From the NCBI GenBank assembly GCA_017506865.1, contig JAFCMP010000445.1, forward strand, positions 186,001-250,000: a stretch of 64,000 bases of DNA. The letters are read 5' to 3'. The translations under genes and the position numbers were made by a program. Under the pieces are notes generated by a model. It did not search any database and had not been told where the DNA came from. It worked only from the letters and a program-made list of their open reading frames with translations. Shown one piece after another: positions 111 through 63,890 of the stretch; position 1 is the stretch's first letter; the number at the start of each line of letters is the position of its first letter. The DNA is from Tribonema minus. Taxonomy: Eukaryota; Sar; Xanthophyceae; Tribonematales; Tribonemataceae.

Positions 111-3100
111 CTGCTTGGTCTCGCTGAGGTAGATGAGCTCGGCGCACACCATCTTGCCGTAGGGCGTGGAGAGATCCAGCGCGTACCTACATACCCCAGT
201 GGGCAGCAGCAAACAGCCCACGAGCACTCATGAGATCAGTGCACGGCAATTCAAACACATTCTGAGCAAGTATATATATTGCCGTAGGGCATGGACTGGT
301 CCAGTGGGTACCTACCTACCCCAACGTGCAGCAGCGAGCAGCGTGCAAGCACATGAGATCCGCGCTCCCCAATTTCATTGTAACGTGACTGAGCATCAGC
401 AGCAGAAGAAAATCAATGCGGTGACCAGTCTAGGGGGCTTTCGGGATACCGCTCAAGAGCCAATACAGTAGCATCTAGATGCAATACGCACCTGCGTATG
501 CACAAGTCAGCAACCGTGTACGAAGCCAAACTAAGCAAGTACTTTGAAGCACATATTCGGTGCATGAAGCGAAGGTATGTTAGCATAAGCACGTCGCTGC
601 TAGAAGTAGAAAGGGCTTGAAGTTGATACGGCCAATAAGACCACGTGATCCATTAAGGTTAACAGGGCCAGCACGCGCGCACAGCAGCAGCGCTCAGCAA
701 GCAGGACCAGAACGCGCCGGCACCCATCGCAGCTGCACTTACTCAAAGGTGCTCACATAATGTGGACCGTTGGGCGCGAGATTAGGGCAGAGGCAGTGGC
801 CTCTGGCGCACGTAGCACAGACCGTGTTTCAGTGCAATACATGCGCATTGAGACACTCTCGAGTTTTTGCAAGACGATACTGTGCAAGCTGGACATCTGT
901 CATTTGGGCAATTTCTTGAAATCACAACACGGGCTCGCATTTCCGCATGTACACTGTTGGCAAACATAGCTATGGGTTCAGGGTTGAAGTTAGGGTTAGG
1001 GTTAGGTGGGGCCCGCGTGCCCTTACTTGTGTAAGCGGTAGAGCCCAGAGACAAATCCTTCAATTCAAAGTGCAAATGTCATCCGCACAACTTACTGTAC
1101 TGTAACATTAAGAGCAGGCCCTGCACAACGGCCAAGCTGATCACTGATTTCAAGCGTGAATGCCGTGAATACAAACAAGCACTGATGTATTCGAGCGCGA
1201 CGTGCGTGCTGTTAGTTCACTCACTTGCCCGCCGGCTGCGCGGCATCGAAGCACTCCGGCGTCTCCAGATCGTTGTCGCCGTTGGACATGCTGACTACCA
1301 GCGGAAGTTGCTCGCTGTTACGCAAAGATTAGCGCAAGGGGGGGGGGGGGGGAGGGGTCAGCACATCTACAGGTTCTTACAATGCACAGCGTCTTGTTTA
1401 CTGAATATTGCAGTCATCACCCGCCGCTTGCAAAGGGGGGGGCTTGACCACCAGCGGCAGCTGCTTGCTGTTACCCAAAAACAAGCGCGAGGGGGGGGGG
1501 GGAGGGTCAGCATATCTATAGGTTTCTGCAATGCACAAGTGCAAGAGGGTGCAAGGGTTCAGCACATCTGCAGGTTTCTGCAATGCACGATGTCGTGTTA
1601 AGTGGACAGTGTTGTCAGAATCTGCCGCTTGCGCAGGGGGGGGCGCAGAAAGGAAAAAAAAAAGGTTCAATTGCACTATACTTCACCTCACTCAAAGTTC
1701 AATGCAACTCACGCACATCCCCACAAAGTCAGATGTGCCTGGTGGGTGAGGTGATACGCACAAATTCTCTCGGCTAGTTTTTGCCTTGAGTTGCTTTCCT
1801 GGGCCGAGATAGTGCATTGTGCAACATCTCGAGGCCTAATTGCATGCAAGTGTTGAAGGCAGCAGGATGCACAAGGGACTGATCAAGCGCACAAAAGTAC
1901 CGCCGCGAATCAAGATGGCCATTGGCACCAGCACATCGACTGAGGGAGGGCATTATAATGTAACTTCAACCCTCAAACCAACCCCAACCCTGACCCTAAC
2001 TCAAAAAAACAAATTAAATTGATTTTGTCATTTATTATCAATAATTCCAAACCTGCGACAGTGCCGACGGCTGGCGAGCAAGTGTAATGAGGTTGAGGTC
2101 AGAACTACGGTCAAGGTTTGGGTTAGGGTTTGGATGAGGGTTGAGGTAAGGGACTGGCAGCAGCACGCAGCTTGGCAACGGCCATGCATAAGCCTAGGCG
2201 ACAGCAGCCTGCAAACGGCTACGCATATAGGGTACACTTCAACTTGAGCTCTCTGCGTAGCATCATCCACACCTTCAGCAACCAGCCATGCATGGGTCAT
2301 GAGTCAAAAGTTATGGGTCAAGAGTCCAGACACGCTGGCTCTCACACTCTCTGTGCACAGTGTCTCCCACAGCTTTGGCCGTGAAGCAGCCATGTTCAAC
2401 TCTGAGCACTGCAATGCACACTCTGACTTTGACTCGACGACTCACACTCTGTACGCGGCGTTGTCCACGGCTTCAGCCATGGTGCCCGCGTTGCGCTTCC
2501 GCACCGCCGTCATGAGGGCGGTGGCACCCACCCTCCCCAGCCTATTGCCATCGAGGTTCAGCTTCGTCAGGGACCTGTGTGTGTGTTGGGGGGGGGGGGG
2601 GGTAGGTAGGTAGCGGATGGTTTGCGGTTGGGGTTAGCAAGGTTTACACATGAAGCGTTGCAAGTGCATTCACATCCTTTGCAGGTGAATGCAAACAAGA
2701 GCCTGCCTGCAGGCGGGTTTGTATGTACCTGTTCGCTCCACATGCTGCTGCGCTGACCATGATCAATGTCAAAAGAGTCAAACCGGCCTTGAAACTCGCC
2801 TTCAAGCGGATTGGCAGCTGTGAAGGGCGCAAGCTGCTGCGAATACATGTACAGTGCTTCAGGAACAATGGGGGCAAACTGCATGGCTAGCGGTAGTATG
2901 TTTCGAGAGCGCTTTCAAAGCGGTTTGGAAGCCGTGCAACGAGTGATACAACATAACTCATAATACCTGTTTGCTCTGCACGCCGCCGCGATGACCATGG
3001 CGGAATTATTAAATTAATACCTGTTCGCTCTGCACGCCGCTGCGAGGACCATCCTGGCACAAGATTTGAAATTCTTCACGAGCGCTTTCGGAGCAGGTCG

Positions 3101-63890: not shown

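Follow-up and report, generated by a model that had tools for sequence, protein, structure and literature searches.

Introners and other transposon-made introns are dispersed elements that create introns. Tandem duplication is likewise a proposed, and once demonstrated, mechanism of intron gain (PMC3443670), and in the RdRp gene of potato one recent duplication crossing an intron-exon border is described, a single case in which a new intron was gained (PMC4974935). Short direct repeats near intron splice sites were surveyed by Rogers and Bendich, whose 4-30 bp repeats flank introns and were read as marks of insertion (PMC11782384). Tandem exon duplication, as in mutually exclusive exons, copies whole exons with flanking intron, which are then spliced (PMC6071210). 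In mouse and human cells, fill-in by CST and Pol alpha-primase at induced breaks with 3' overhangs makes small tandem duplications, which the passages concerned do not tie to exon borders (PMC8355091).

Here we analysed a stretch of 64,000 nucleotides of Tribonema minus DNA (the window), in whose introns degenerate copies of the edges of the adjoining exons, hereafter echoes, had been noticed. As with introners, dispersed elements sit in the introns here too, but the echoes themselves are copies of the gene's own exon edges. Like the potato duplication, they are direct and, in most copies, apparently tandem, and the duplicated segment crosses an intron-exon border; unlike it, existing introns appear to be lengthened, at half of the tested edges in two genes and often serially (PMC4974935). 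With the repeats of Rogers and Bendich they share direct orientation and position at intron-exon borders, whereas here 20-90 bp of exon edge together with intron is copied inside the intron (PMC11782384). With tandem exon duplication they share the local direct duplication of exon and flanking intron, although one edge only is copied and the copies decay (PMC6071210). The direct, tandem and local character of the fill-in duplications made by CST and Pol alpha-primase offers, by analogy, a ready mechanism (PMC8355091). The claim that no named system resembles this pattern has to be amended, given the border-crossing duplication in potato (PMC4974935) and the known role of tandem duplication in intron gain (PMC3443670); among the open-licence papers searched, there was no account of introns lengthened serially by copies of their own exon edges. 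Our reading, to which we give a probability of about 0.7, is that recurrent short, local, direct duplications across exon borders, tolerated via splicing, lengthen these introns.

The genome comprises 158 Mb in 554 contigs. In the D-lactate dehydrogenase (LDHD) gene (52-64 kb), 11 anchored exon cores are identical to the annotated protein P0121 of Tribonema minus (residues 101-490), a yellow-green alga (Xanthophyceae), and the window is accordingly taken as nuclear DNA of this species. Five genes or open reading frames, all on the minus strand, were noted: LDHD, a selenium-binding protein (SBP) gene, a leucine-rich repeat (LRR) gene, one gene in which a DLRGF motif recurs, and an open reading frame for polyglutamine (17064-19853) for which no homologs were found; Rfam at gathering scores gave no match over the window. 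Open reading frames that are near-identical but oppositely oriented (about 19723-20899 and 24865-26167) point to a long inverted repeat whose arms are separated by about 4-5 kb; it may be a mobile element of the kind that has long terminal inverted repeats. So that the exon calls would not be circular, the 24 exons of LDHD and SBP were fixed through homologous proteins and splice signals, independently of the repeats, using P0121 for LDHD and the homologs P0001 and P0008 for SBP (tblastn, splice fit).

52257..63890, minus strand: LDHD gene, 5' part beyond the window (tblastn and splice fit to P0121)
63890-63795, 62899-62837, 62330-62264, 61495-61387, 60470-60359, 59674-59582, minus strand: LDHD exons (splice fit)
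58185-58065, 56726-56560, 55489-55453, 54501-54348, 53334-53280, 52406-52257, minus strand: LDHD exons, continued (splice fit)
27478..39095, minus strand: SBP (selenium-binding protein / methanethiol oxidase) gene (homologs at most 65% identical; tblastn, splice fit)
39095-38973 (start uncertain), 38775-38605, 37632-37441, 36556-36477, 35202-35126, 33669-33533, minus strand: SBP exons (splice fit)
32422-32318, 31920-31847, 30895-30817, 30142-30056, 29030-28890, 27618-27478, minus strand: SBP exons, continued (splice fit)
40708..48587, minus strand: gene in which the motif ...DLRGFxGGF... recurs (exons predicted from sequence alone)

Among the 24, support is weakest for where SBP exon 1 starts and for LDHD exon 55489-55453, the latter taken from a weak match to a single homolog, P0122 (15 residues, E 0.13). 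This possible small exon (CVPVSKLADLI, 55453-55489, minus strand) is present in P0122 and absent from the annotated P0121, whose junction at this place uses a weak donor, possibly an annotation error beside an echo array.

When the window was compared with itself, repeats within 1 kb of each other were direct rather than inverted by 93 to 1 (98 to 1 at a looser cut-off), in line with the uniform orientation that had been claimed, and 26% of the window lay in such a repeat copy. At 22 of the 44 intron-facing edges of LDHD and SBP, the match to the edge's own intron exceeded that in all 60 shuffles, compared with 1/44 for the reverse complement. Also at 22/44 edges, the own intron matched better than any of the 19-20 other, non-adjacent introns tested in the two genes. 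The copies of exon edges in flanking introns are thus real, and the comparison of own with other introns that the original prediction had proposed bears them out in the two genes on which it was run. Altogether 43 copies were found, counted as BLAST alignments with E 0.01 or better and at least 12 exon bases, where neighbouring alignments in one array may overlap; LDHD and SBP alone supply this number, where about 80 had earlier been estimated for the whole window. They surround 13/24 exons, so that echoes are common but reach only a little over half of the exons rather than most of them, as had been stated. The expected side was respected by 42 of the 43, the exon start being carried by 22/22 upstream copies and the exon end by 20/21 downstream copies, and none of the 43 bore the opposite exon edge. 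Most copies are 5-30% divergent, with indels, and some are 92-100% identical across the exon part. Many echoes correspond to surplus partial protein matches beside the true LDHD and SBP exons in tblastn; they appear as such because the homologs are spliced proteins. Their positions in LDHD are as follows.

63510..63671, minus strand: two echoes of the end of exon 1 plus donor (63671-63619, 63556-63510; BLAST)
62703..62759, minus strand: weak downstream echo of the end of exon 2, 59% over the exon part (BLAST)
61573..62018, minus strand: upstream echoes of the start of exon 4, three overlapping or neighbouring alignments (BLAST)
60874..61067, minus strand: downstream echoes of the end of exon 4 (61067-61019, 60910-60874; BLAST)
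60608..60665, minus strand: upstream echo of the start of exon 5 (BLAST); the 130 bp spacer beside it has no homology, and a genome search found no other copy of it
60154..60236, minus strand: downstream echo of the end of exon 5 (BLAST)
58290..58398, minus strand: upstream echo of the start of exon 7 (BLAST)
57875..57987, minus strand: downstream echo of the end of exon 7 (BLAST)
56848..57356, minus strand: three tandem upstream echoes of the start of exon 8, period about 178 bp (BLAST, tblastn, tandem-repeat list)
55878..56483, minus strand: four downstream echoes of the end of exon 8, the farthest ending 8 bases before the exon end (BLAST, tblastn)
54611..54994, minus strand: three upstream echoes of the start of exon 10 (BLAST, tblastn)
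53681..54242, minus strand: four downstream echoes of the end of exon 10 (BLAST, tblastn)

The following were found in SBP and in the other genes of the window.

37714..37868, minus strand: upstream echo of the start of SBP exon 3 (BLAST, tblastn)
37114..37312, minus strand: two downstream echoes of the end of SBP exon 3 (BLAST, tblastn)
35823..35950, minus strand: two weak downstream echoes of the end of SBP exon 4 (BLAST)
33746..34168, minus strand: three upstream echoes of the start of SBP exon 6 (BLAST, tblastn)
32564..33189, minus strand: four upstream echoes of the start of SBP exon 7 (BLAST)
30976..31283, minus strand: two upstream echoes of the start of SBP exon 9 (BLAST, tblastn)
30679..30744, minus strand: downstream echo of the end of SBP exon 9 (BLAST, tblastn)
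29137..29271, minus strand: upstream echo of the start of SBP exon 11 (BLAST)
28688..28743, minus strand: downstream echo of the end of SBP exon 11, 56 bp at 94.6% (BLAST)
46750-47125 and 43242-43641, minus strand: upstream echo arrays in the DLRGF gene (predicted exons 46683-46535 and 43111-42953, respectively)
44433-44615, minus strand: downstream echo array in the DLRGF gene (predicted exon 44774-44688)
46222..46282, minus strand: echo of the end of DLRGF-gene exon 46683-46535, 61 bp, with a dispersed element copy (46389-46522) between exon and echo
6463..7365, minus strand: predicted LRR exon end with its donor (..RIIRAYLADG followed by gtgagc) in about five tandem copies, period about 157 bp
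10787..11258, minus strand: in-frame 126 bp (42 residue) tandem array within a predicted exon, 97-99% identical

The last of these is a duplication of similar size that was kept inside coding sequence. For the window as a whole, exons were predicted with a scorer of codon usage and splice signals trained on the 24 homology-fixed exons, 17 of which it recovers exactly and 20 of which it overlaps; one shuffled sequence gave 0 hits at the chosen cut-off. Among 61 predicted exons, after removal of 3 low-complexity predictions and those with less than 400 bp of flank, 49/122 edges had an echo on the expected side, 12/122 on the wrong side and 2/244 on the reverse strand. Some polypyrimidine tracts at acceptors (43100-43360, 45880-46040 and others) are long C runs, which might promote breakage. 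Short interstitial TTAGGG/CCCTAA stretches occur at 3526-3566, 9335-9378, 29203-29238, 30623-30656, 46713-46756 and elsewhere, some of them at or near intron repeat units, and are possibly scars of break repair.

In 130 nearest pairs of repeats, drawn from the window minus 12.3-19 kb and from other loci, all in alignments of at least 40 bp, the period had a median of 180 bp, with 78 pairs at 100-199 bp and none below 80 bp. The window's tandem-repeat list adds a few arrays of shorter units, e.g. 44, 47 and 69 bp; a period of about 60-200 bp had been noted at first. The 22 introns of LDHD and SBP hold 30 repeat families, 21 edge-linked and 9 intron-internal, an edge-linked family being present in 19/22 introns; the two classes make up 31% and 7%, respectively, of 20,621 intron bases. 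Intron length rises with repeat content (Spearman 0.72, n=22), a correlation that is partly present by construction.

According to the preferred reading, recurrent local duplications in direct orientation, mostly of 100-200 bp, would strike this genome, and a duplication straddling one exon border would be tolerated because splicing would continue at the border that is still joined to the intact exon. The extra copy, consisting of a decoy splice site and a piece of exon, would turn into intron and decay, and repeated events at the same border would give a series of echoes and a longer intron. The data themselves show that the copies are local and direct, that they obey the side rule, that their decay breaks the frame, that echoes were born after a gene had duplicated and that they are present on further contigs. 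We infer in addition that the introns started short, that splicing passes over the decoy sites and that staggered breaks or paired nicks, repaired by fill-in and end joining, give rise to the duplications; the same fill-in repair of staggered breaks might also account for insertions with long flanking duplications.

The prominence of edge-linked families raises the alternative that breaks or duplications occur preferentially at exon borders instead of arising everywhere and then being filtered by selection; damage linked to transcription or splicing, or breakage to either side of a nucleosome that sits on the exon, would be examples. The share of such families (21/30) points in this direction, as does the clustering of unit length at 100-200 bp, the scale of a nucleosome. 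With exons masked, 10/22 families strictly touched an edge where 4.4 were expected by uniform placement (P 0.005), and 6 of the other 12 are edge-linked by coordinates. Strictly uniform placement of duplications in the present introns is disfavoured by these masked data. By computation, however, an intron that grows from 80 bp through untargeted duplication already has edge events as a share of up to 0.47 of all events, which fits the strict count of 10/22, while the 21/30 exceeds the expectation for such growth (P 0.007 at 0.46). Moreover, edge families remain visible longer because the exon copy decays slowly, and exon conservation makes them easier to detect, so that detection favours edges; the in-frame array inside an exon and the 9 intron-internal families also speak against targeting. 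Edge targeting is therefore possible but unlikely, and it is not needed.

If the copied unit comprises an exon part and an intron part, the intron parts should match as well. The adjoining intron was homologous in 29/43 copies (z >4), not homologous in 10/43 (z <2) and unclear in 4/43, and the junctions of even the most similar copy pairs are decayed or displaced. As to the tandem duplication across the border that had been proposed, local direct copying, the stranded copy, decay and intron lengthening are supported; a plain tandem unit would suit the 29 copies and not the ten. For some echoes foreign DNA may have entered a wide staggered break at the border, the filled-in ends leaving a duplicate of 50-80 bp. 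This agrees with the position of the element copy at 46389-46522, which separates an exon end from the 61 bp echo of that end, and with an old dispersed repeat in SBP.

37313..37411, minus strand: fragment of an old dispersed repeat that separates SBP exon 3 from its far echo (genome-wide 647 first-look candidates, at least 40 of them scored)

The element at 46389-46522 (minus strand) belongs to a dispersed family of about 110-250 bp that starts with ATGaAAACGAATCAAAAGATCGTAGAGCTCTAGGTGACAAGG and occurs also at the loci L006, L013, L016 and L020-L030; at least 40 copies were scored among 2437-2537 first-look candidates, 82-92% identical to the window copy and 90-100% to the L013 copy, mostly over 111-115 bp. 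In L021 and L022 it is flanked on either side by repeats of 57 and 53 bp, which likewise favour insertion, as does an insert in L013 that holds a related element. Flanking repeats were flagged, however, at only 6/12 element loci and not at the other 6, in surroundings where direct repeats are dense anyway. Four spacers were searched genome-wide: dispersed repeats are present in two, whereas for the third no other copy was found and for the fourth a local copy only. Given the 29/43 copies with homologous adjoining intron, as expected of tandem units, insertion with a long target duplication is rejected as a general cause and retained for some echoes; as a rival to duplication across borders we regard it as quite improbable.

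The stretch L013 carries an inverted pair of paralogous genes at 1679-4183 (plus strand) and 9998-7089 (minus strand); their exons are predicted, and by their sequence the genes are putatively lactonase-like. One intron, 489 bp long in copy A, reaches 1503 bp in copy B, where it contains three echoes of the end of the preceding exon; none of them is in copy A, whose only self-match is weak (60% identity) and lies across the other border of the intron. At diagnostic sites the echoes have the B base in 19/19 resolved cases and never that of A (8/27 cells are gaps or other bases), so that these echoes arose in B after the gene duplication. In the preceding intron of copy B the exon end occurs twice, as 53 bp copies that enclose 268 bp of new DNA, and the sister A lacks this insert. 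It is the L013 insert mentioned above; about 140 of its bases are not the dispersed element, a point against the insertion reading. The pair is a natural experiment on intron growth.

The copies themselves look neutral, because 11/11 indels in their exon-derived parts are not multiples of three and shift the frame; 2 stops were also present. Where the position was aligned, the acceptor AG is kept in 17/22 copies and the donor GT in 10/19, the other 9 being altered, 4 of them to GC. Exons and copies differ by 160 transitions and 110 transversions, with a nonsynonymous/synonymous ratio of 0.32. This ratio, and the 92-100% identity of some copies over the exon part, would suit echoes that serve as alternative exon edges or as decoy splice sites under selection. 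The ratio is below 0.5, the value argued for neutral copies when the exon is under constraint and there is no transition bias, but such a bias would, by the same argument, lower the neutral expectation. There may be weak constraint on some copies; with frameshifting indels throughout, nearly half of the aligned donors altered and copies that are partial, a functional role is very improbable. Mutually exclusive exons, which would be complete and open, are ruled out for LDHD and SBP by copies that never have both edges and by the 11 frameshifting indels. Chance similarity, ruled out by the shuffles, the other introns and the reverse strand, and assembly artefact, contradicted by copies that mostly differ by 5-30% plus indels, unlike a stuttered assembly, have no point in their favour and are extremely improbable.

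Elsewhere in the genome, HSP70 genes were located by Pfam model, and one on contig C190 was picked for its long introns (786-1726 bp) before its sequence was seen. Two of its 6 edges have echoes (z 14.2 and 10.6), and the other 4 are negative, including a third edge that a repeat array enters by 22 bp and that fails alone (z 2.5). A short-intron HSP70 gene on C522, with gaps of about 190-470 bp between matches, had no direct repeat in 4.2 kb. The 17 stretches that were placed arbitrarily, 162 kb in all, gave 62 direct pairs against 3 inverted ones, with about 7% of bases in a copy; this sample leans to longer contigs, since 8/20 chosen placements fell beyond a contig end, and one stretch is just 2.1 kb. 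Direct repeats of this kind were lacking in 10/17. These include a dynein gene whose exons run to several kb, a WD40 (Prp19-like) gene whose predicted introns measure about 500-670 bp, and a stretch where a reverse-transcriptase match fell slightly short of its cut-off. The pattern does occur on other contigs, but patchily. At 11 loci chosen only for the dispersed element, the count was 69 direct to 1 inverted.

Edge counts in the arbitrary stretches are based on predicted exons that include false ones, those with less than 400 bp of flank being dropped. In L002-L013 (119 exons, 20 low-complexity predictions dropped), edges echoed on the right side in 21/238, on the wrong side in 9/238 and in reverse in 5/476 cases; in L014-L018 (39 exons, an unrecorded number of such predictions dropped) the figures were 4/78, 0/78 and 2/156. 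Pfam gave only matches under curated cut-offs on L002 and L006, and L007 at 1-1242 (plus strand) weakly matches a telomere resolvase domain (E 0.0004, likewise below the curated cut-off).

Against the reading of recurrent border-crossing duplication count the 10/43 copies whose adjoining intron lacks homology, unlike plain tandem units, the high edge linkage (21/30), the 10/17 empty stretches, the negative 4/6 edges of the C190 gene and the ratio of 0.32. If it is right, introns can lengthen stepwise by small local duplications that splicing hides. This would bear on how introns become long in compact algal genomes, with the steps of growth still legible here. The many natural decoy splice sites, each beside its known real partner, would make both intron growth and splice-site choice testable, and annotators should be warned that echoes resemble pieces of exons. 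A bolder and doubtful proposition is that intron length in this lineage is driven mainly by nucleosome-sized duplication aimed at exon borders, intron interiors being largely fossil exon edges; if true, this may extend to related algae with unusually long introns, and each intron would keep a readable record of its growth.
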